A stretch of 64,000 nucleotides of DNA, taken from contig QCIP01000010.1 of the NCBI GenBank assembly GCA_003216615.1, forward strand, positions 1-64,000, read 5' to 3'. Below, piece by piece: positions 9,867 through 45,773 of the stretch. Both the position numbers and the translations under genes were made by a program. This DNA comes from Prochlorococcus sp. AG-402-M15 (lineage in GTDB: Bacteria; Cyanobacteriota; Cyanobacteriia; PCC-6307; Cyanobiaceae). A model generated the notes under the pieces. That model saw nothing but the letters and a program-made list of their open reading frames with translations. It searched no databases and had not been told where the DNA came from. Within the stretch, counting starts at the first letter, position 1; each line of letters opens with the position of its first letter.

Positions 9867-10378
9867 TGTATAAATTTTTGACCAAAAAAAATTTATCTAT
9901 AATTTTTTTTATTTTTGTTCCCATTATGTTTTTATGGCACCCGAATTGGTTTGGATTTTTAGGCGTTCAGCCATATTGGCCTTTATTGTGGTTGTTGCCT
10001 TGGTCAATGATTAACGGATCAATTAGTGGATTAATATTTGGTTTGTTTTTAGGACTAATTTTAGATTCTTTAACTCTAGATAGTAATTTTACTCAAATGC
10101 CAGGTTTAATTTTATGTGGTTTTTGGTTTGGGAGAATTAAATTACATAATGATTTTTTGGTGGGACATTTTAGGTATGGTTTAATTTGTTCCTTTGGAAG
10201 TTTTTTATGCGGGACACTTTATTTTTTACAGATCTTGTTTGAAAATTTTTCAGATAGTACTTTTTTACTTTTTATACCCAGTCTTCAAAACATCTTAGCT
10301 GAAGTTTTTCTTACAGGTTTTTTTGCTCCTTTAATTTGCTCCCAACTATTAAGAGTATTTAAATTTTCACGGAGATAA
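9866..10378 (+). CDS. mreD: Rod-shape-determining protein MreD
   Basis: 170 residues from the ATG at 9866, which overlaps the mreC stop (TAATG); a start 30 bp upstream inside mreC is less likely. The product is almost entirely hydrophobic, with about five membrane segments, as expected for MreD. Sequence signatures are weak in this family, so the call rests on the topology and the position right after mreC. It is thought to help MreC and RodA function in the elongation complex. Confidence 0.85.
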   Translation: MYKFLTKKNLSIIFFIFVPIMFLWHPNWFGFLGVQPYWPLLWLLPWSMINGSISGLIFGLFLGLILDSLTLDSNFTQMPGLILCGFWFGRIKLHNDFLVGHFRYGLICSFGSFLCGTLYFLQILFENFSDSTFLLFIPSLQNILAEVFLTGFFAPLICSQLLRVFKFSRR

Positions 10379-10566
10379 ATAGAATAATTATTTTTGCAAA
10401 TAAGTAAAAAGTGTTTGAAAAAGTTCGTATCTTGAGAAAATTAAAATTTTTGTAAAACTAGTAAATATCTCTTTTAGGGGTTATTAATGTTATATTTTAA
10501 GTTGTTAGAATAAATATTCAATGCAATAATTCTTTGCTTTGAAGTATCGAGAAATCTTTTTTAACT

Positions 10567-11313
10567 ATGTCAAAAGCAAGAATTTTAGTTGTTGATGATG
10601 AGCCAGCAGTATTGAAGGTATTAGTTACTAGACTTCAACTAGCCGGATATCAGGTTTTTTCAGCGACTAACGGAGAAGAGGCTCTCGAATCTTTTCATAG
10701 AGATTCCCCTGACTTGATAGTCCTTGATGTTATGCTTCCAAAAATGGATGGATTTGCAGTTTGCAGAAGAATTAGAGCTGAATCAGTAGTTCCAATAATA
10801 TTCTTAACAGCTCTAGAGGCAATTTCAGAGAGAGTAGCAGGTTTAGATTTAGGGGCTGATGATTACCTATCTAAACCTTTTAGCCCAAAAGAGTTAGAAG
10901 CTAGGATAGCTACTATTTTGAGAAGAATGGGCCCTACTGTATCTGTGGCCGAAACGAAAGAGGTCCCATCTGGCAAAGGAGTTATGAAATTTGGAAGTTT
11001 AGTTGTTGATACTAATCGCAGACAAGTTTCTAGAGCAGGTGAAAGAATAAGCCTAACTTATACTGAATTTAGCCTTCTAGAATTATTATTCGATGAGCCT
11101 GGTAAAGTCGTTCCAAGAGCTGAAATCTTAGAACAATTATGGGGTTACCCACCTAGAAGAGCTGCAGATTTACGAGTTGTAGATGTTTATGTAGCGAGAT
11201 TAAGAGGTAAATTGGAACCAGATCCAAGAAATCCGGAATTAATATTAACTGTTAGGGGTATCGGTTATGCATCTCAGAGAGTTGGGGAAACAGCAACATC
11301 TTTGGCAAGTTGA
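10567..11313 (+). CDS. rpaB: OmpR-family response regulator RpaB
   Basis: 248 residues. The receiver domain (about 5-118) has the acidic pair D10-D11, the phospho-acceptor Asp54 in IVLDVMLPKMDGF, Thr81 and Lys103 in YLSKPFSPKE. A winged-helix DNA-binding domain follows (about 145-238), ending in the conserved IRGIGY-like RGIGYASQR. This is the cyanobacterial RpaB/Ycf27 type, an essential regulator of photosystem I and high-light genes that binds HLR1 sites and partners with the sensor NblS. A 188-bp AT-rich region upstream probably carries its promoter. psaC and psaD in this window are the kinds of genes it controls in other cyanobacteria. Confidence 0.93.
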   Translation: MSKARILVVDDEPAVLKVLVTRLQLAGYQVFSATNGEEALESFHRDSPDLIVLDVMLPKMDGFAVCRRIRAESVVPIIFLTALEAISERVAGLDLGADDYLSKPFSPKELEARIATILRRMGPTVSVAETKEVPSGKGVMKFGSLVVDTNRRQVSRAGERISLTYTEFSLLELLFDEPGKVVPRAEILEQLWGYPPRRAADLRVVDVYVARLRGKLEPDPRNPELILTVRGIGYASQRVGETATSLAS

Positions 11314-11362
11314 GCCTTATTCTGATACTTTTATTAAATAAAACAAATATATTAAGTTAATT

Positions 11363-12901
11363 TTGTCTGAAATAAGAGAATCTCGCATACAAAAAGCTAA
11401 TTCACTAGTGAGCAAAGGATTTGCTTCTTACGCAGAAAGTTTTAAAGTTTCCCACACTACAAGATTTCTTATTCAAAAATTTGATTATTTAGAAAATGGT
11501 CAAGAGGAAGACTTTAATGTCTCTATTGCAGGTAGAGTGATGGCAAAAAGGGTAATGGGTAAAATCGCCTTTTTCACAATAAGAGATCAAGAAGGTCAGA
11601 TTCAGCTTTATTTAGATAAAAGGATTGTTGATTGTAATTTAGAAAACCAAAAATCACTTTCTTTTGAAGATATTAAGGAAATTGTAGATATTGGTGATTG
11701 GATCGGCGTCTATGGAACTATTAAAAAAACTAATAAAGGTGAGCTTTCAATAAAATTGGAGCATTGGGAAATGTTATCTAAATCCTTGCAGCCATTACCA
11801 GATAAATGGCATGGATTGACTGATATTGAGAAAAGATATAGACAACGTTATCTAGATTTAATAGTGAATCCTCACTCTAGAAGCGTATTTAAAACAAGAG
11901 CAAAATGTATAAGTTTTATAAGACAATGGTTAGATGATAGAAATTTTTTAGAGATAGAGACTCCAATTCTGCAATCTGAGGCTGGTGGTGCTGAAGCAAG
12001 ACCATTTATTACTCATCACAATACATTAAATATTCCTCTGTATTTAAGAATAGCGACAGAATTACATCTAAAAAGAATGATTGTTGGAGGATTTGAGAAA
12101 GTTTATGAATTGGGAAGAATCTTCCGTAATGAAGGGATAAGTACTAAGCATAATCCGGAATTTACTTCAGTTGAAATTTATCAGGCTTTTTCTAATTATG
12201 TCGATATGATGGATTTAACTGAAGAACTGATTAAAGATATCGTATATGATGCATGTGGTTCTTTAATTATAAATTATCAAAATAAGGAAATTGATTTTTC
12301 AAAACCTTGGTCAAGAATATCAATGAAAGATATAGTCAAGAAATATACAGGAATTGATTTTGATTCTTTCAATGGAGACTTTCAAGAAGCAAAACAAGCC
12401 GTTAAAAGCATAAATATTGAATTTTCGTCAAAAGTAAATACAATAGGAAGACTTTTAAATGAGGTCTTTGAGCAAAAAGTAGAGTTAGAACTTATAGAAC
12501 CTACTTTTGTTATAGATTATCCTGTTGAAATTTCTCCTTTAGCAAGGCCTCATCTTGAAAATAAAGAAATGGTTCAGAGATTCGAATTATTCATTGTTGG
12601 TAGAGAGTTAGCAAATGCTTTTAGTGAGTTGATAGATCCAGTTGATCAAAGAGAAAGAATGCAATTGCAGCAATCTCTTAGGGATGAAGGTGATTTTGAG
12701 GCTCATTGTATAGATGAGGACTTTTTGAATGCTTTAGAGATTGGCATGCCCCCTACTGGGGGCTTAGGTATAGGTATTGATAGACTTATTATGTTAATTA
12801 CTAATAGTCCATCAATTAGAGATGTAATTCCTTTCCCATTGTTAAAACCAGAAATAACTTCTACTAAAAATGAAAAATCACCCTTGCATGAAGTAAAATA
12901 G
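11363..12901 (+). CDS. lysS: Lysyl-tRNA synthetase, class II
   Basis: 512 residues from a TTG start. An N-terminal OB-fold anticodon-binding domain (about 55-165, [23 protein letters not shown]) is followed by the class II catalytic core. Motif 2 is [18 protein letters not shown] and motif 3 is [13 protein letters not shown] near the C-terminus. The central segment [18 protein letters not shown]-like (EIETPILQ) is typical of LysRS. It attaches lysine to tRNA-Lys. It lies 49 bp after rpaB. Confidence 0.96.
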
Positions 12902-12929
12902 ATAAATTAATCCAATACGAAATTTTTAA

Positions 12930-13178
12930 ATGAGTGGTGAACGTGTTGGTTTCCGTTTCAAACACGCGGATGCAGTAGTGAAAAGAAATCCTCAAGGCCG
13001 ATCAAGACGAGGCTGGGTAATCGAACCAGTAGAGCAAACTACAAGCAGGGGTACAAAAATGCCTGCGTATAAAATTCGCTGGAGAGATAGTGAGCGACCA
13101 GAAACTGTTTTACAGCATATGTTAATTGCAGATCCAGATCCTTCTCCTCCTCCAAGTTCAGTAAGTTTAGATTCATAG
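12930..13178 (+). CDS. Small basic conserved protein of unknown function
   Basis: 82 residues, not assigned to a named family by me. It has a basic N-terminal half (GFRFKHADAVVKRNPQGRSRRG), a central KIRWRDSERPETVLQHML segment that could form a small beta-barrel, and a proline/serine-rich acidic tail (DPDPSPPPSSVSLDS). The composition suggests a small nucleic-acid- or protein-binding domain, but this is inference. It follows lysS by 28 bp on the same strand and may be co-transcribed. I believe similar small proteins occur in marine picocyanobacteria, which would need a search. Confidence 0.75.
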   Translation: MSGERVGFRFKHADAVVKRNPQGRSRRGWVIEPVEQTTSRGTKMPAYKIRWRDSERPETVLQHMLIADPDPSPPPSSVSLDS

Positions 13179-13202
13179 TTTCAACATTTCTAGATAATAT
13201 TT

Positions 13203-13697
13203 TTATCTTTTTAGTGCAGATTTGATTTCTTTCTTTATACTTTTTTGTTTTTCGTCTTGCCGTTTGTCATGTAATTTTTTTCCTTTACCGACGCCAATAG
13301 TTAGTTTTATCCATGAGCCTTTTATATAAAGAGATAATGGAACAATAGTCATTCCTTTTTTTTCTGTATTAGATTTAAGTTTTATGATTTCTTTTTTATG
13401 AAGTAGCAACTTTCTATTTCTCAATGGATCATGATTAAAAAAAGAACCCACATTTTTATGTGGTGAAATGTGAACATTTAACAATAAAATCTCTCCGTCT
13501 CTGAATGAACAGTACCCATCTCTTAAATTTGCTTTTCCATTTCTGATAGACTTTACTTCAGTCCCTAAAAGTTCAATTCCAGCTTCGATTGTTTCAGATA
13601 TTGCATATTGAAATTTTGCATATCTATTCTCAGCTAGACGTTTAAAATTATTTCCTTTTTTAGTATTTTTTTGAACTTTGTTTGAATTTTTTGCCAT
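13203..13697 (-). CDS. smpB: SsrA-binding protein SmpB
   Basis: 164 residues. The SmpB beta-barrel is clear: [69 protein letters not shown], and then the C-terminal tail [13 protein letters not shown], which inserts into the empty mRNA channel of stalled ribosomes. SmpB works with tmRNA in ribosome rescue. No ssrA gene is evident in this window. It is convergent with the small unknown gene before it and divergent from ruvB. Confidence 0.95.
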
Positions 13698-13749
13698 TTT
13701 AGTTGTAAAAAATCTTTCTACTCAGAACAATTGCAATTAACCTTTCATT

Positions 13750-14799
13750 ATGGCAATAATTTCCTCCAATATAGACGATAATGACTCTTCTCTTTATAAA
13801 AAAGAGCTTAGATTAGTTGATTCAAAAATTATTCCAGAAGAAAAAAGAAATAATAATCTGAACTTAGCTCGTCCTCTTAATCTACAAGAATTTATTGGCC
13901 AAGAACAACTTAAGTCTTCTTTAAGAATAGCTATAGATGCTTCAATTTATAGAAAAGAGCCTTTGGAGCATACTCTTTTGTATGGACAGCCTGGTTTAGG
14001 TAAGACTACCCTAGCCTTTTTGATAGCCCATGAAATGAATACAAAATGTAGGATAGCGACTGCACCTGCAATTGAAAGGCCTAGAGATATTGTAGGGTTA
14101 TTGCTTGGATTAAAAGAAGGTGAAGTTTTATTTATTGATGAGATACATCGCTTAAATAAGTTAACTGAAGAGTTGTTATATTCTGCCATGGAGGATTACA
14201 GAATAGATTTGACTATGGGAGCTAATAGAGGAGCACGTTGCAGAACAATTAATCTTCCAAGGTTTACTTTGGTTGGCGCAACAACTAAATTAGCATCAAT
14301 TAGTGCCCCTCTAAGAGATAGATTTGGTATATCTCAAAAAATTGATTTTTATACATATGATGAATTAAAACAAATAATTGCTAACTTCTCTCGGTTAATA
14401 AATATTAGTTTAGATGATGAAGCATCTTATGATTTAGCAAAGATATCTCGAGGGACTCCAAGAATTGCTTTGAGATTATTAAGGAGAGTTAGAGATTATG
14501 CTCAAGTTATTCAAAAAACTAATGTTATCTCTGTAAATTTAATAAAAAAAGCGTTAAATTCTTACCAAATAGACGAGAAGGGATTGGATTCTTTAGATAG
14601 ACAATATTTATCTTTTCTGAGTCAAAACCATCATATTCCAATTGGCCTAGATTCAATAGCTGCTGCATTGGGAGATGATTCTTCAATGTTAGAATTTGTA
14701 GTTGAGCCATATCTAATCCAAATTGGTTTCCTTAAGAGAACTCCCCGTGGAAGACTAATTACTGCTTTAGGAAAAAAGTACATTGATTCAAAAAAATGA
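13750..14799 (+). CDS. ruvB: Holliday junction branch-migration ATPase RuvB
   Basis: 349 residues. An AAA+ core has Walker [12 protein letters not shown] near residue 78, Walker [12 protein letters not shown], sensor [20 protein letters not shown], and a C-terminal winged helix ([29 protein letters not shown]). RuvB forms hexameric rings that drive Holliday junction migration with RuvA. The last four bases overlap the next gene's ATG (ATGA at 14796-14799), so the TPR protein downstream is probably translationally coupled. Confidence 0.96.
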
Positions 14800-15584
14800 T
14801 AACTTTTAAAAAAGTTAAGGTCTGTTTTTTATTAATTTTTGTCTTTGTCAATATTTTTTATATTGCACCATGTTATTCATTATCTTTGAGAGAGGATTTG
14901 TTTAAAAATGCATTAGATCTAAGTTCAAGAGGTAAATTTAATCTCGCTTTACAAGAATGGAATCGTTATATCGATTCTTATCCTGATGATGCTGCAGGTT
15001 TGAGCAATAGAGGAAATGTAAGACTTGTCACAGGTGACGTAGAGGGATCAATAGATGATCAAAATAAGGCAATAAGTTTAAATCCAAGTGAAATAGATCC
15101 TTATATTAATAGAGGTATTGCTGAGGAAGCTTTAGGTCTATGGTCGCAAGCGAGAAAAGATTATATGTTTGTTATTTCGCAAGATAGTAAGAATTTCTCC
15201 GCATTATATAATTTAGCCAATGTTGAAGGGTCTACGTCACAATGGGAAAAAGCAAGAGATTTATTTTCAAAAGCTGCTTTATATAATCCTGGATTTGCTA
15301 TGGCAAGGTCAAGTATGGCTTTAGCAGATTTCCAGTTGGGACATATTGATGAATCTGAAAAAGAATTAAAAAAATTAATTAGGCGTTATCCAACTTTTGC
15401 AGATGCTAGGGCAGCTTTAACAGCTTTGAATTGGTCTAAGGGTGAAGCAGGTAAAGCTGAGAGTAATTGGATAGCAGTAACGGAATTAGATCCTAGGTAT
15501 AGTAATAAGGAATGGTTACAAAACATAAGAAGATGGCCCCCACAACCAATTTTGGATTTAATGAACTTTATTGATTTAAAATAA
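14796..15584 (+). CDS. TPR-repeat protein with N-terminal signal or membrane anchor
   Basis: 262 residues. A hydrophobic N-terminus (residues 8-28) ends near a Cys in APCYS and looks like a signal peptide; a lipoprotein cleavage site is possible but the lipobox is not canonical. At least four TPR-like helical pairs follow from about 35 to 235 (for example [20 protein letters not shown] and [20 protein letters not shown]). TPRs are protein-binding scaffolds; the partner is unknown. The gene overlaps ruvB by 4 bp and is followed after 3 bp by an amidohydrolase. Its sequence gives no reason to place it in DNA repair. Confidence 0.8.
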
Positions 15585-15587
15585 CTA

Positions 15588-16748
15588 ATGAATAGAGATC
15601 AGCTTTTTAAAAAAATTGATTCGTTTAATGATGAATTAATTAATTTAAGAAGACATATCCATGCGCATCCGGAATTGAGTGGACTGGAAAACCAAACAGC
15701 TATTTTGATAAGTGGTTATTTAAAAAATATTGGTTGGAATGTTAGAGAATCTATAGGAAAGACTGGAGTAATAGCCGATTATGGCCCCTCAGAAAAAGGC
15801 ATTATAGGCTTAAGAGTGGATATGGATGCTTTACCAATATTTGAGGAAACTAAATTAAGTTTTTCTTCCAAAGTAGATGGAGTGATGCATGCATGTGGTC
15901 ACGATATTCATATTTCGATCGGATTGGGTGTGGCAAAAATTGTCAAGGATTTAAAACTTAATTATGGGACTAGGATAATTTTTCAGCCCGCTGAAGAAAT
16001 TGCTAGTGGAGCTAGATGGATGATTAAGGATGGTGCAACTAATGGTTTAACTCATATTTTAGGAGTTCATGTCTACCCAGATTTATCTGTAGGCAGTATT
16101 GGGATTAAAGAGGGAAGTTTAACTGCAGCTGCTGGAGAACTCATGGTAGAGATTAAAGGAAAATCAGGACATGGTGCTCGACCTCATGAAGGGGTTGATG
16201 CTATTTGGGTGGCATCCAAAGTTATCTCTGGAATTCAAGAATTAATAACGCGGAAGTTAGATCCTTTAGATCCTGTAGTAATAACTTTTGGTAAAATAAA
16301 CGGTGGCAATGCATTCAATGTTCTTGCAGAAAAGGTTAATTTAATTGGTACTGTTAGATGCACTAATCTTAAATTATTTAAGAATATTGGTAATTGGCTC
16401 AATGAAAATATTTCATCTTTAGTTTATAGTTGCGGAGCTGATGTAAAAGTAATATTTAGAGAAATTACTCCACCAGTAAATAATAATTATGAAATTAATA
16501 AAGTCCTTAGAGATTCAGGAATTAAGGTTCTGGGTCAAGAAAATGTTATCGAATTGCAAAAACCATCATTAGGTGCTGAAGATTTTGCTGAGTTCTTGAA
16601 TAAAATCCCTGGGGCTATGTTTAGGCTTGGTGTTTCTAGTTCAAATGGATGTGCGCCATTACATAGTTCTAAATTTGATCCAGATGAAAGAGCTATTGCT
16701 GTTGGAATTAAAGTGATAACAGAATCCATAGTAAAATTAAACAATTAA
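15588..16748 (+). CDS. M20-family metal-dependent amidohydrolase (HipO/IAA-amino acid hydrolase type)
   Basis: 386 residues. Metal-binding and catalytic motifs of peptidase family M20D are visible: LRRHIHAHPELSG near 21, GLRVDMDALPI near 77, HACGHDIHIS near 103, and QPAEEIASGARWMIKDGA near 140. A dimerisation insert (about 185-295) follows and the late motif is LGAEDFAEFL. These enzymes cleave amide bonds in N-acyl amino acids. The true substrate is unknown. It starts 3 bp after the TPR gene. Confidence 0.88.
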   Translation: MNRDQLFKKIDSFNDELINLRRHIHAHPELSGLENQTAILISGYLKNIGWNVRESIGKTGVIADYGPSEKGIIGLRVDMDALPIFEETKLSFSSKVDGVMHACGHDIHISIGLGVAKIVKDLKLNYGTRIIFQPAEEIASGARWMIKDGATNGLTHILGVHVYPDLSVGSIGIKEGSLTAAAGELMVEIKGKSGHGARPHEGVDAIWVASKVISGIQELITRKLDPLDPVVITFGKINGGNAFNVLAEKVNLIGTVRCTNLKLFKNIGNWLNENISSLVYSCGADVKVIFREITPPVNNNYEINKVLRDSGIKVLGQENVIELQKPSLGAEDFAEFLNKIPGAMFRLGVSSSNGCAPLHSSKFDPDERAIAVGIKVITESIVKLNN

Positions 16749-16768
16749 ATAATAATTAAAGTTGATAA

Positions 16769-16984
16769 ATGAAAATAAATTCAAGATTTATTCTGTCTTT
16801 TGTCGCTCCTTTTATGATCCTTATATCTTTTATTGGATTAATTTTAAAGGAGAATAATAAGAAGATTTTTTATTTACCTATTGGCTTAATGGGGATTTCA
16901 ATTATTTTCGAGAAAGATTTAGGAAGAAGATTGGCTAGAAAAAATATTTTAAAAAAGATAAAGTCTTATCAAAAATTTAAATAA
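16769..16984 (+). CDS. Small membrane protein of unknown function
   Basis: 71 residues with two hydrophobic stretches (about 8-26 and 33-47) and a strongly basic C-terminal tail (RRLARKNILKKIKSYQKFK). The charge pattern predicts both ends facing the cytoplasm. I do not recognise the family. It lies 20 bp after the amidohydrolase on the same strand and just before the thiC leader. Small two-helix proteins like this are common in picocyanobacteria, and the coding call rests on length, position and topology. Confidence 0.6.
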   Translation: MKINSRFILSFVAPFMILISFIGLILKENNKKIFYLPIGLMGISIIFEKDLGRRLARKNILKKIKSYQKFK

Positions 16985-17049
16985 AATCTTTTATTTATTT
17001 TTACGCAACATGTGATGACTATTTTTTAGAAAGGAGCTATTAATAAAAT

Positions 17050-17136
17050 AAATACTAGGGGTGCTAGGAAATTTAACTTAGCTGAGATCATACCCTTTGA
17101 ACCTGAATCATTAATCCTGAGGCAGGGAAGTGGAAA
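17050..17136 (+). promoter_or_regulatory. TPP riboswitch in the thiC leader
   Basis: The leader has the conserved TPP (THI element) pieces in the right order: TACTAGGGGTGCTAGG, GCTGAGATCATACCCTTTGA, ACCTGA, and a closing CTGAGGCAGGGAAG. The GGGGTGC/CTGAGA/ACCCTTTGAACCTGA core is the classic thi-box that binds thiamine pyrophosphate. It ends about 45 bp before the thiC ATG, so control is probably at translation initiation or by attenuation in that gap. This supports feedback of thiamine synthesis by TPP. Confidence 0.93.
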
Positions 17137-17179
17137 TTTGATCTAACTTTAGTAATAAAAACTTATAAACTTATAAATT

Positions 17180-18550
17180 ATGAGAAGTTCTTGGATTAAG
17201 CCTCGCCTTGGAAAAGACAATGTAACTCAGATGAACTTTGCGAGGAACGGATATATCACTGAAGAAATGGATTTTGTTGCTAAAAAAGAGAATCTTCCTT
17301 CTTCTTTAATAATGGAAGAAGTGGCAAGGGGAAGATTAATTATTCCAGCTAATATTAATCATTTGAATCTTGAGCCAATGTCTATAGGTATTGCTTCTAG
17401 ATGCAAAGTTAATGCCAATATTGGTGCTTCCCCTAATGCAAGTGACATCAATGAAGAAGTAGAGAAGCTCAAGCTAGCAGTTAAATATGGGGCTGATACG
17501 GTTATGGATCTTTCTACAGGAGGAGTAAATTTAGATGAAGTGAGGCAAGCAATTATTCATGAGTCTCCTGTTCCTATTGGAACAGTTCCTGTTTATCAAG
17601 CTTTAGAAAGTGTACATGGTTCAATAGATAGACTAACTGAAGACGATTTTCTTCATATTATTGAAAAACATTGTCAGCAAGGAGTAGATTATCAAACTAT
17701 TCATGCTGGGTTATTAATAGAGCATTTGCCGAAAGTCAAAGGAAGAATTACTGGAATTGTAAGTAGGGGGGGAGGTATTTTAGCCCAATGGATGTTACAT
17801 CACTTTAAGCAAAATCCTCTTTACACAAGGTTTGATGACATTTGTGAGATTTTCAAGAAATATGATTGCACTTTTTCTCTAGGAGATTCACTAAGGCCTG
17901 GATGCTTGCATGATGCTTCTGATGATGCTCAGCTAGCTGAATTGAAGACCTTAGGCGAACTTACTAGAAGAGCATGGGAACATAATGTTCAAGTAATGGT
18001 TGAGGGTCCTGGTCATGTACCTATGGACCAAATTGAGTTTAATGTGAGAAAGCAAATGGAAGAATGTTCAGAAGCCCCCTTTTATGTGCTTGGTCCATTA
18101 GTGACAGATATATCACCTGGTTATGACCATATATCAAGTGCTATTGGAGCGGCGATGGCAGGGTGGTATGGAACTTCTATGTTATGTTATGTAACCCCAA
18201 AAGAACATCTAGGTCTCCCAAATGCAGAGGATGTAAGAGAAGGATTAATTGCTTATAAAATAGCTGCTCATGCTGCTGACATAGCAAGACATCGAGCTGG
18301 CGCTCGTGATCGAGATGATGAACTTAGTCATGCAAGGTATAACTTTGATTGGAATAAACAATTCGAACTTTCATTAGATCCAGAAAGGGCAAAGCAGTAC
18401 CATGATGAGACACTACCTGAAGAAATCTTTAAAAAGGCTGAGTTTTGTTCAATGTGTGGTCCTAAACATTGTCCAATGAATTCAAAGATTTCTGATGAAT
18501 CTCTTGATCAGTTAAAAGATAAACTTGAAGAATGTAATACTTCAGTATAG
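17180..18550 (+). CDS. thiC: Phosphomethylpyrimidine synthase ThiC
   Basis: 456 residues. It has the ThiC signatures [15 protein letters not shown]-like N-terminus, [31 protein letters not shown], and the C-terminal iron-sulfur motif [11 protein letters not shown] (CX2CX4C). ThiC is a radical-SAM enzyme that turns aminoimidazole ribotide into the HMP-P pyrimidine of thiamine. Its [4Fe-4S] cluster and SAM sites lie in this C-terminal part. It is preceded by a TPP riboswitch. It is convergent with tktA, a TPP-dependent enzyme. Confidence 0.97.
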
Positions 18551-42918: not shown

Positions 42919-43072
42919 TTCAACACAAGAGTTAATAAGCTTTAAAGACCAAAATAATTCAAAAATTAACCTTACTTCAGAGAAAGATCCCATTTTATGT
43001 AATCATTGCAAAAGGACTGCTTCAAATGGTGTTAGATGTTTAGGAATTTGTGTAGCAGATAATGATTACTAA
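42905..43072 (+). CDS. Small zinc-ribbon-like protein
   Basis: 55 residues from the ATG at 42905, inside the 3' end of the preceding gene. The C-terminal half has four cysteines in CNHCKRTASNGVRCLGIC (CX2C...CX3C), which suggests a small zinc-binding knuckle. Function unknown. The longer ORF from 42860 would overlap the preceding gene by 59 bp and adds a hydrophobic lead without support. Confidence 0.7.
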   Translation: MTLFDSTQELISFKDQNNSKINLTSEKDPILCNHCKRTASNGVRCLGICVADNDY

Positions 43073-43271: not shown

Positions 43272-43304
43272 AAATTAAATAAGGCAACACCCAGATTCGC
43301 ATTG
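43272..43304. repeat. Degenerate duplicate of the tRNA-Cys 3' end, att-like
   Basis: Aligned without gaps to 44421-44453 (the flank, acceptor and T-arm side of tRNA-Cys), this 33-bp stretch matches at about 27 positions and contains the 12-mer CACCCAGATTCG exactly. The offset is 1149 bp and the orientation is the same. Elements that integrate at the 3' end of a tRNA gene leave exactly this kind of displaced copy at their far end. Confidence 0.6.
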
Positions 43305-43360
43305 ATGTATCAATACTACAAAACAACACTATAATTACAGTTTCAGCGATATAAATTAAC

Positions 43361-43373
43361 AACTAACCGCCCA
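43361..43373 (+). repeat. Direct repeat AACTAACCGCCCA, left copy
   Basis: This 13-mer occurs again at 44320-44332 on the far side of the three-gene operon, where it is followed by a second overlapping copy. Its high G+C stands out against the AT-rich flank. Confidence 0.5.
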
Positions 43374-43430
43374 TAAGTGATATTTTTTTGATTATTTTTG
43401 GGCTTAATTAACTTATACGTCAGAAATTTC

Positions 43431-43440
43431 GGGCGGTTAA
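43431..43440 (-). repeat. Reverse-orientation copy of the CTAACCGCCC motif
   Basis: GGGCGGTTAA is the reverse complement of TTAACCGCCC, sharing its core with the direct motif AACTAACCGCCCA at 43361-43373 about 58 bp away. The two could pair into a stem or mark a protein-binding site. No known protein is assigned. Confidence 0.45.
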
Positions 43441-43474
43441 TAATACTTACTTGCACCTCTAAAGTGTTACCCTA

Positions 43475-43789
43475 ATGAATAGGGGAGGAAACTTAGAATC
43501 AGGAATACAAAAGATTGAAGGAAATACAGGAGGATCAACAACAATAATGAATAAAGATTTTGACAATACAAATTGGAAACAAGAAATACTAGGCAGTTTG
43601 GAGTTTAATCAATCTAAGTTTGTAAGTAAGTTACTTAAGAATGGAGCAAAATCATTTATGCAAAGTATCTATCTTGGGTATCTCTACACCAGATGGAAGA
43701 AGTTGAAAGGTTATGACAAGTTTGTCCCAGTAGAAAACAAAGGGCAAATGCAATCATCATTAAAAGAGTTCTGGGAGAAAACTAAATGA
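43475..43789 (+). CDS. Islet gene 1, unknown protein
   Basis: 104 residues as an ORF, no family recognised. The N-terminal 24 residues are Gly/Ser-rich. A later ATG at 43547 (giving 80 residues, MNKDFDNTNWKQEIL) sits 13 bp after a perfect AGGAGG, which may be the true start; in that case the first ATG, in the loop of a CCCTA/TAGGG hairpin, is only leader. The body is basic and probably helical, with an aromatic run SIYLGYLYTRWKKLKGYDKF. The stop overlaps the next ATG (ATGA), so the genes are coupled. Confidence 0.6.
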   Translation: MNRGGNLESGIQKIEGNTGGSTTIMNKDFDNTNWKQEILGSLEFNQSKFVSKLLKNGAKSFMQSIYLGYLYTRWKKLKGYDKFVPVENKGQMQSSLKEFWEKTK

Positions 43790-43917
43790 AGATAATTGCA
43801 AAAGTAAGATATGTAGATTTTCAAAAGATATCTCACACAGTTGAAGCGCAAATTGCTATGCGTTATAAAAGAATTGAGAACTTAAGTGATCATCTACAAA
43901 GCAATTTTCACAAATAA
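43786..43917 (+). CDS. Islet gene 2, 43-residue unknown protein
   Basis: 43 residues: a basic peptide starting MKIIAKVRYVDFQK and ending in SDHLQSNFHK, likely a beta strand followed by a helix. Its ATG overlaps the stop of gene 1 and its TAA is 2 bp before the ATG of gene 3. Alone, so short an ORF would be weak, but the tight coupling on both sides supports translation. Family unknown. Confidence 0.5.
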   Translation: MKIIAKVRYVDFQKISHTVEAQIAMRYKRIENLSDHLQSNFHK

Positions 43918-43919
43918 GA

Positions 43920-44279
43920 ATGTCATTGTTAAATAAATTCTCGATTAAAGATATCATACTCTCAAACAAAGAGGCATATCAAAAGGAACTCAAGAACAAA
44001 GGTGTGGGTTCACAAATCGGGAAGTCATTATTTAATAAATTCTCGATTAAAGATATCATACTCTCAAACAAAGAGGCATATCAAAAGGAACTCAAGAACA
44101 AAGGTGTGGGTTCACAAATCGGGAAGTCATTATTTAATAAATTCTCGATTAAAGATATCATACTCTCAAACAAAGAGGCATATCAAAAGGAACTCAAGAA
44201 CAAAGGTGTGGGTTCACAAATCGGGAAGTCATTATTTAATAAATTCTCGATTAAAGATATCATACTCTCAAGCAAATAG
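43920..44279 (+). CDS. Islet gene 3, protein made of 34-residue tandem repeats
   Basis: 119 residues. It starts 2 bp after gene 2 and consists of just over three copies of a 34-residue unit (NKFSIKDIILSNKEAYQKEL followed by KNKGVGSQIGKSL(F/L)). The unit is Lys/Asn/Ser-rich with a short amphipathic helix. Because the DNA unit is 102 bp, copy-number change keeps the frame. The last copy has two substitutions that turn NKE into SK-stop. A second ORF in another frame (44002-44325) is also open, only because of the periodicity, and I do not call it. Function unknown. Confidence 0.5.
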   Translation: MSLLNKFSIKDIILSNKEAYQKELKNKGVGSQIGKSLFNKFSIKDIILSNKEAYQKELKNKGVGSQIGKSLFNKFSIKDIILSNKEAYQKELKNKGVGSQIGKSLFNKFSIKDIILSSK

Positions 44280-44293
44280 GCATATCAAAGGAT
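43923..44293 (+). repeat. Perfect 102-bp tandem repeat, about 3.6 copies
   Basis: Counting from TTCTCGATTA, copies begin at 43938, 44040, 44142 and 44244, an exact 102-bp step. The three full copies (43938-44039, 44040-44141, 44142-44243) are identical base for base by eye. The start is a divergent partial copy and the end a partial one with substitutions and then loss of similarity after about 44293. Identity this high suggests recent expansion. No spacers are present, so it is not a CRISPR array. Confidence 0.9.
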
Positions 44294-44319
44294 CAAAAAA
44301 CCCTGATAATTTATCAGCA

Positions 44320-44343
44320 AACTAACCGCCCACTAACCGCCCA
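44320..44343 (+). repeat. Direct repeat AACTAACCGCCCA, right tandem copies
   Basis: ACTAACCGCCC is present twice in tandem with an 11-bp step. The first copy is the exact 13-mer also found at 43361. It lies just after a perfect palindrome, CTGATAA-T-TTATCAG (44303-44317), and 88 bp before tRNA-Cys. Paired sites flanking the operon suggest recombinase arm sites, iterons or operators, but no assignment is possible. Confidence 0.5.
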
Positions 44344-44430
44344 TTCTGAACGTCTTGAGTATTAAGAATCGCTACAATAATCTCTTGTGTTTGGAACGCT
44401 TTACAGCGAATATTGTCACTAATTTAAAGA

Positions 44431-44501
44431 AGGCGGCACCCAGATTCGAACTGGGGATAAAGGATTTGCAATCCTCTGCCTTACCACTTGGCCATGCCGC
44501 C
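44431..44501 (-). tRNA. tRNA-Cys (anticodon GCA)
   Basis: Read on the minus strand: acceptor GGCGGCA with TGCCGCC, D arm and D loop GGCCAAGTGGTAAGGC, anticodon loop TTGCAAA with GCA at 34-36, and T arm CCCAGTTCGAATCTGGG. The 3' end faces the islet, so this is the side where a tRNA-targeting element would insert. CCA is not encoded. Its plus strand is read through by a spurious ORF extension. Confidence 0.96.
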
Positions 44502-44543
44502 GAAAAAGATTCGATTGAGTCTTTTTATGATCTTAACAGTAAG

Positions 44544-45773
44544 GTGTCTCATTCTCTATTATTTATATGCAATGGTCATGGAGAAGATGTAATAGCATCG
44601 GAAATAATAAAAAGATTACTAAAAAAAATAAAAAATAAAAATATTGAAGTTTTGCCGTTAGTAGGAAATGGAGATGTATTTAATTTCATAAAATCAAAGA
44701 ATTTTCGTAAAATAGGATATTTAAAAGAGCTGCCTAGTGGAGGTTTTAGTAATCAAAGTCTGAAAGGATTTGTACTTGATTTGTTTGCAGGATTTTTAAT
44801 CGATAATTTAAGAAATTTTCTACTTGTAAAACAGAAGTCAAAACATAACTGCAAAATAATCGCAGTAGGCGATTTCTTGCCATTACTTTACGCTTGGAGT
44901 TCAGAATGCGAATTTTGTTTCATTGGGACTCCCAAAAGTGATCATACTTGGAGTAGTGGGCCAGGTTGGGATTTAAGCGATTTTTATCATAAGTTGAAAG
45001 GTTCTGAATGGGATCCATGGGAAATGTTTTTAATGAAATCTTCAAGATGTAAAAATTTAATTATGAGAGATAAAATTACAGCTAATAATTTGAATAGAAA
45101 AAATATTGATGCAAAATATTTGGGAAATCCAATGATGGATTTTGTTAATGCAACAAACGAGAAGATATCAAATATTATTTTTTTTAAAAGGATTATTTTA
45201 TTAGTTGGAAGTAGATACCCTGAAGCTCTTAAAAATCTTGATAATTTTCTTAATTGTTTGCAAGATTTTCATTTATCAAAGGATTTGGTAATACTTTTGC
45301 CTTTGAGCATTAATGCGAATGTGATTCAAATTCAAAGTTATTTAAATAAATATGGTTTTATAAAACAGAGTAAAAATAAATTTCTCATTGATGAAGATTC
45401 AGTATGGAAAAAGAAAGATAAATATGTAGTGATTGGAAAAGGTAAATTCAATTCATGGGCCAATATGGCAGAAGTTGGCTTGTCTAATGCAGGAACTGCT
45501 ACAGAGCAAATTGCTGGCCTTGGAATTCCATCTCTTTCTCTACCGGGACCTGGACCACAATTTACAAAATCATTTGCAAAAAGGCAATCAAGATTATTGG
45601 GAGGTAGTGTTTTAGTTTGCAAGAACAAAAAAATTCTTTTAAAACGTTTAAGTTTACTTTTAAAAGGAAAAGTTGATAGGTTAGAACAAGCAAAAATTGG
45701 AAAAAAAAGAATGGGGGAATCCGGAGCAAGTAAGAAAATCGTAGATGCAATAAACCTTTATTTGTTATCTTAG
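44544..45773 (+). CDS. Lipid-A-disaccharide synthase-related protein (cyanobacterial family)
   Basis: About 409 residues from a GTG at 44544. Any start further upstream would have to read through tRNA-Cys. SLLFICNGHGEDVIASEII is the N-terminal nucleotide-sugar fold, and GLSNAGTATEQIAGLGIPSLSLPGPGPQFT is the second Rossmann-like domain typical of LpxB/GT-B relatives. This matches the cyanobacterial LpxB-related group (TIGR03492), whose reaction is not established. It is probably a glycosyltransferase, but without lipid A evidence here. Confidence 0.8.
   Translation: MSHSLLFICNGHGEDVIASEIIKRLLKKIKNKNIEVLPLVGNGDVFNFIKSKNFRKIGYLKELPSGGFSNQSLKGFVLDLFAGFLIDNLRNFLLVKQKSKHNCKIIAVGDFLPLLYAWSSECEFCFIGTPKSDHTWSSGPGWDLSDFYHKLKGSEWDPWEMFLMKSSRCKNLIMRDKITANNLNRKNIDAKYLGNPMMDFVNATNEKISNIIFFKRIILLVGSRYPEALKNLDNFLNCLQDFHLSKDLVILLPLSINANVIQIQSYLNKYGFIKQSKNKFLIDEDSVWKKKDKYVVIGKGKFNSWANMAEVGLSNAGTATEQIAGLGIPSLSLPGPGPQFTKSFAKRQSRLLGGSVLVCKNKKILLKRLSLLLKGKVDRLEQAKIGKKRMGESGASKKIVDAINLYLLS

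Follow-up and report, generated by a model that had tools for sequence, protein, structure and literature searches.

The window analysed here is a stretch of 64,000 nucleotides from Prochlorococcus sp. AG-402-M15, a genome labelled G000 in what follows. An intact tRNA-Cys gene lies on its minus strand and, together with a displaced copy of its end, bounds a small islet. This contains three codirectional open reading frames and 3.8 tandem copies of a 102-bp repeat. A preliminary description had given the displaced copy as a 33-bp match with about 27 identities at a distance of 1149 bp. This is borne out, with positions 43272-43304 and 44421-44453 being 82% identical (27/33) at a spacing of 1149. 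The exact 12-mer CACCCAGATTCG that the two were said to share is found at 43288 and 44437 and, on searching both strands, nowhere else in the window. The features of the locus are:

43278..43519, plus strand: left element end, 80% identical (~240 bp) to the left end of an element in genome G157
43281..43299, plus strand: attL, the displaced copy of the tRNA-Cys end, AAGGCAACACCCAGATTCG; the sequence to its left is nearly identical to the empty site of relatives
43361..43373, plus strand: left arm-like repeat, AACTAACCGCCCA, which at this place is doubled in tandem in G157 and G175
43431..43441, minus strand: arm-like motif seen in the sequence, inverted, GGGCGGTTAAT
43547..43789, plus strand: orfA, 80 aa, PHROG 16908/869
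43786..43917, plus strand: orfB, 43 aa, with a 62-bp piece in common with the G157 element
43920..44279, plus strand: orfC, 119 aa of 34-aa (102-bp) repeats, like GVGSQIG..NKFSI of the host RuvA
44289..44502, plus strand: right element end plus tRNA, 88% identical (214 bp) to the right end of the G157 element
44322..44342, plus strand: right arm-like pair, CTAACCGCCCACTAACCGCCC, two 10-mers with an 11-bp period
44355..45773, plus strand: open frame from the right element end through the tRNA-Cys antisense into the TIGR03492 (LpxB-related) gene
44430..44448, plus strand: attR core, common to the 3' half of tRNA-Cys
44431..44501, minus strand: tRNA-Cys (GCA), intact, the integration target

The best ungapped score of the interval against the tRNA end is 16, compared with at most 12 in 120 dinucleotide shuffles, so the 33-bp similarity is not what shuffled sequence gives. 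Chance similarity to the tRNA was ruled out by these shuffles and by the comparison of sites across loci described below. The attL of the window departs from the common copy at 5 of 27 positions. None of the three reading frames matches a recombinase in Pfam or the PHROGs and no PF00589 match of the G000 genome falls within the islet, in agreement with the absence of a recombinase noted previously.

In relatives the site is delimited by the small gene that ends at 43072 in the window and by the LpxB-related gene. A survey of 101 genus genomes gave 74 orthologous loci, of which 70 were taken and 62 could be measured: 40 intervals are of 206-230 bp, one is of 109 bp, two are of 256 and 263 bp and 19 are of 350-3,112 bp, some of these last being measured from the next upstream gene. 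A second survey covered 80 named Prochlorococcus loci, which partly overlap the 70 as the same contigs occur in two collections; 77 were resolved and the other three start too near a contig end. In 52 of the 77 the site is empty, with an interval of 204-226 bp (131 bp in one; median 214 bp) and no displaced tRNA copy. The remaining 25 are occupied, with intervals of 410-9,724 bp, and a displaced tRNA copy was found in 15 of these at the threshold used and not found in 10. The interval in the window, at 1,362 bp, is 1,148 bp above the median, against the repeat spacing of 1,149. Both observations suggested earlier as support for integration, an empty site with a single tRNA 3' end and other elements at the same tRNA, were thus made, the former being the commonest state, and the interval is not one that is kept in most strains. 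The 52 empty and 25 occupied sites rule out a conserved host interval, and the islet is a real insertion.

The junctions are seen on aligning G000 with 12 short-interval loci. Ten of these have a left flank nearly identical to that of G000 as far as the att core (one of the 10, L008, lacks ~100 bp further left), with L057 and L061 diverging from it; on the right the sequence continues as the tRNA. Among 29 sequences, made up of the window and 28 fetched loci picked mostly for their longer intervals, 12 have a displaced tRNA end, delimiting elements of 630 to 2,277 bp. Two copies of the tRNA end are in tandem in G060, and some other genomes have displaced copies that resemble the tRNA end more closely than that of G000 does. 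The contents of these intervals vary. By their likeness we take the cargo to include polysaccharide-export-like proteins in G003, G010, G023 and G029, and presumably GIY-YIG-like (G047), TPR-like (G006 and G013), HNH-like (G038) and other proteins, with no displaced copy being found in G013 at the threshold used. Of four cargo proteins compared with the PHROGs, two had matches, all to families of unknown function. Proteins that read as polysaccharide-export-like also recur as cargo at tRNA-Cys in L261, L247 and L295. Among the PF00589 matches listed for the 22 genomes of the insert set none is inside the interval, this profile being blind to the 462-aa family described below.

In G157 a 7.1-kb element lies at tRNA-Cys. 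Two copies of a CCGCCC arm pair bound it, and it encodes a 462-aa protein just inside its left end as well as a serine resolvase and a GIY-YIG protein; four of its reading frames were scanned, and none was recognised as a conjugation gene. Besides the two ends, a 62-bp piece inside the islet, where orfB begins, is 92% identical to the G157 element. The whole islet is present in G175 (86% over 1,234 bp), where a different arm pair lies ~100 bp to the left of the islet's attL, as it would beside the end of another element, so that the small form seems to have been inserted more than once. Parts of the islet are also found in G111 (at a contig end), G120 and G077, and G047 and G166 have only the islet ends in common, with other genes between. 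From these sequence relationships the islet is best interpreted as a miniature, non-autonomous version of the G157-type element, which lends support to the earlier proposal of a nonautonomous or decayed relative of the tRNA-integrating elements. The G157 element itself, an integrase-bearing relative with homologous ends, fits the element of Flamholz et al rather than a tycheposon.

The arm pair in G157, CTTACCGCCCACTTACCGCCC, is found at both ends of the element, and the CCGCCC arm-pair pattern matches in 10 of 266 genomes. Elements at tRNA-Cys in G196 and G247, which carry relatives of the 462-aa protein, each have an arm motif of their own at both ends. Motifs of different elements include CTWACCGCCC, CTTACCATCC and CTTACCGTCC; they are alike at the two ends of one element and differ between elements. 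Of 18 left ends and 18 right ends, 15 of each have tandem 10-mers with a period of 11, compared with 1.4% and 0.7%, respectively, of stretches taken at random from the window; they were not found at the other three of each, the left end in G000 being one of these. The single left copy in G000, compared with two in tandem in G157 and G175, indicates that G000 has probably lost one 11-bp unit. The mean score of the left motif of an element against its own right motif is 15.9 over 18 elements, a value reached in none of 20,000 permutations, a figure that is not a strict probability because several elements share motif and history. There is no left-right match in G029 (score 7) and a weak one in G120 (9). 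Tandem repeats also lie upstream of 17 of 20 integrases, some of them nearly identical, against a background of 5%. Lambda-type integrases have arm-type binding sites and, by analogy, the paired 11-bp repeats are candidates for such sites.

A protein search (E ≤ 1e-20) gave relatives of the 462-aa protein in 8 of 266 genus genomes, counting G157 itself, and a profile search gave them in 29 of 299 genomes of the order, representing 9 of 35 genera, several of these last being fragments or containing stops. No relative was found in G000 by either route (protein E ≤ 1e-20; profile E ≤ 1e-5), in a genome that is 99.7% complete. Of the eight loci, the fetched stretch includes tRNA-Cys in G157, G196 and G247, tRNA-Phe in G021, G084 and G054, and no tRNA in G122 and G131. 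At tRNA-Cys, the G196 and G247 contigs (L270 and L317) carry integrase-bearing elements of ~9.5 kb, and an OrfA-like frame containing a stop is present in L270 as well. A serine recombinase match is present in five of the eight loci, that of the query included. Arg285, Lys314, Arg393-His394-Thr395 and Tyr431 are invariant in the eight sequences, two of which lack the N-terminus, and on extending the comparison to 18 sequences all remain so except Lys314, which is nearly invariant. The consensus of the 18 contains the motif RHT..GHTS..TY, which we take to resemble the catalytic boxes of tyrosine recombinases. No convincing profile match to the family was obtained in Pfam, NCBIfam, PHROG or the PDB, profile comparison with two PF00589 recombinases gave a probability of 0.2-0.3%, and the AlphaFold model of a G247-type sequence is poor (pLDDT 40); the class assignment therefore rests on the motifs, the position and the published account. 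It would seem likely on these grounds that the protein is divergent but tyrosine-recombinase-like, and it is the candidate recombinase of the elements. The family fits the integrase of Flamholz et al in its tRNA location, the lack of a library profile match, the conserved residues and the serine recombinase nearby, the comparison with WP_052038630 being by description and not by sequence.

Recombinases of the PF00589 type are present elsewhere in G000. A separate integrase-bearing element lies beside a gene reading as guaA (L202, G000:C13:10000-29999, positions 10135-17192), with a PF00589 recombinase, a DUF5906 protein, a weak REP_ORF2-G2P match and a serine resolvase. A 389-aa PF00589 recombinase is encoded between genes reading as cobO and hemH (L201:6427-7596, G000:C5), and 15 of the 22 genomes searched have a frame of 386-399 aa that matches PF00589.

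The three islet frames had been described as belonging to no known family and as accompanied by unusual repeats. The frames and repeats are there, but OrfA matches PHROG 16908 (E 7.8e-17), a family without known function, and so the statement is wrong for OrfA; its likelier start is also at 43547, giving 80 aa, and not at 43475 as first given. Relatives of OrfA, some weak, are found in 84 of 266 genus genomes (E ≤ 0.001), and the search of phage proteins that had been proposed found relatives in 24 phage records at 34-49% identity, seven labelled 'Marine virus' and 17, duplicates among them, whose names refer to Prochlorococcus, Synechococcus or cyanophage. In phage P-TIM68 the OrfA relative lies between purM and cobS (L241:2998-3409) and is followed by a shorter, weakly similar paralogue, and a pair of OrfA-like frames is present in the tRNA-Cys interval of G061. 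Residues 18-42 of OrfB resemble the host ribosomal protein S15 (16 of 25 identical; Pfam E 0.0011, below the cut-off) and the repeats of OrfC resemble the helix-hairpin-helix segment of RuvA. The genes that we take, from reading, to encode RuvA and S15 are adjacent in G000, and two weak matches to neighbouring genes suggest that OrfB and OrfC are host-derived pieces. The structure model of OrfC is poor (pLDDT 41). Changes at the three codon positions number 30/32/105 for OrfA, 30/35/52 for OrfB and 117/164/526 for OrfC, this last count taking in repeats that overlap and copies from outside tRNA islets. When 15 OrfC copies were tried, the numbers for 10 of them were 29/25/71, seven of the 10 having a tRNA on the stretch. 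Internal stops are present in 3 of 13 homologous OrfB copies and 2 of 71 OrfC copies. Judged by the third-position excess, OrfA and OrfC appear to have been maintained, and OrfB to a lesser degree. In other genomes OrfB and OrfC are also found near tRNA-Ser and tRNA-Asn, in several with a partial displaced tRNA end of modest score (13-18), and OrfC near tRNA-Met in one genome without a displaced copy. Several genomes also have a second OrfC-like gene, in which the number of 34-aa repeats varies (L237:2857-3222, L238:3097-3462 and L240:2622-2885), and no tRNA was noted in its surroundings.

At the right end the element may supply the 5' end of the LpxB-related gene. A stretch of 23 codons in the frame of this gene is open in all 35 right ends compared, while each of the other frames is open in 2 of 35, and the differences are mostly at third positions (0.362, 0.265, 0.516). 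The frame through the tRNA-Cys antisense to the TIGR03492 domain is open in 150 of 151 loci, short-interval sites included (118 loci are distinct; the 151st was dropped for its differing core). In the 66-bp linker, differences are not in excess at third positions (0.102, 0.057, 0.092). In 13 of 112 distinct loci there is no ATG or GTG from the tRNA to the domain, and in 10 of these 13 no TTG either. The TIGR03492 match spans positions 4-393 of the 396 in the model, beginning at the domain start, and so the family does not need the extension. The evidence being mixed, the frame may be where the gene truly starts, or it may be a leader or encode a small protein in its own right.

Taken together, the islet is very probably a non-autonomous miniature integrative element of ~1,150 bp, with both recombination ends of the G157 type and without an integrase gene. 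The cognate integrase would be supplied in trans by an autonomous relative in the same cell and would bind the paired 11-bp arm repeats near each end; the attP core of the element would then recombine with the 3' half of tRNA-Cys, restoring the tRNA and leaving the displaced copy of its end as attL. That the 462-aa protein is the recombinase, binds the repeats and acts in trans, and that the islet is mobile, are what we infer from these comparisons. Neither an excised circle nor movement was seen. The diverged attL and the missing left arm unit indicate that the G000 copy may be poorly mobile and, with no cognate integrase found in the genome, it is probably ageing. These same two features would also be expected if a full autonomous element had integrated here and a deletion had then removed its integrase in situ, the small form never having been mobile as such, as in a decayed, CIME-like island, and the internal 62-bp match to G157 likewise suggests an origin by deletion. 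This explanation is nevertheless unlikely, since the small form in G175 lies beside the apparent end of a different element, pointing to a separate insertion, and G047 and G166 have both ends in common but different cargo.

The different cargo between the same ends in G047 and G166 also argues against a satellite packaged by cyanophages with OrfA to OrfC as its working genes. The phage relatives of OrfA would favour such a satellite, as would the variation of OrfA and OrfC mainly at third codon positions, but OrfC has no phage match, none of the three frames is a recognised packaging gene and no relative of the integrase, OrfC or OrfA was confirmed in viral_contigs with single-sequence queries, making it improbable. 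A phage or virion origin was set aside on the same three viral_contigs scans, made with single-sequence queries, which find close relatives only. Finally, a chance likeness to the tRNA with ordinary intergenic variation and no mobile element, for which it can be said that the repeat in G000 is merely 82% identical over 33 bp, has almost nothing to commend it given the shuffle control, the empty sites, the closer displaced copies elsewhere and the homologous ends. Returning to the miniature element, a wider scheme can be put forward tentatively, as possible rather than probable. In this the tRNA-Cys would be an integron-like docking site at which elements that bear an integrase, rare and of several arm specificities, move the more numerous mini-elements of one or a few genes that have the same arm type. 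These would exchange cargo such as the polysaccharide-export-like genes, each restoring the 3' end of the tRNA and the 5' coding end of the antisense-overlapping LpxB-related gene.

Among known systems, the ssrA islands of Dehalococcoides, as presented in PMC3146451, are similar in being tandem islands bounded by repeats of an RNA-gene end, 15 of them without an integration module, but differ in having a serine recombinase and tmRNA as the target. CIMEs, in the account of PMC5704250, are defined from decayed ICEs or IMEs. The islet resembles them in having kept attL and attR with the integration and transfer genes absent, and in tandem accretion (two in G060). Its parent-like element in G157, as far as scanned, has no recognised conjugation gene, and insertion seems to occur in the small form itself, which is nearer to a MITE. 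Tycheposons, as PMC10872708 summarises them from Hackl et al (2023), are elements of 4-200 kb with a recombinase. They share with the islet the Prochlorococcus host and a tRNA target, and carry a tyrosine recombinase and cargo, but at 1.15 kb against at least 4 kb, and without a recombinase, a tycheposon at the islet is ruled out. The nearest system is that of Flamholz, Biller and Kelly (PMC10187409), who describe a novel picocyanobacterial tyrosine integrase that HMMs fail to detect. It lies near tRNA-Phe or tRNA-Cys, in islands of variable content and often with a small serine recombinase close by. They set it apart from the tycheposon integrases and state that the mode of mobilisation or integration is not known. 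The larger relatives of the islet match this element in host group, tRNA target, HMM-invisible integrase and serine recombinase; the islet has the tRNA-Cys location but, unlike the element, no encoded integrase. A search of the main text of PMC10187409 by term gave no mention of att sites, direct repeats, arm repeats or integrase-less forms. New here are the element boundaries, the paired 11-bp repeats and the finding that inserts without the integrase outnumber those bearing it by 23 to 2 among the occupied named loci. The ends, att core and paired repeats make the integration mechanism directly testable, and the small integrase-less forms suggest a route for the exchange of single genes in an abundant phototroph with a streamlined genome.
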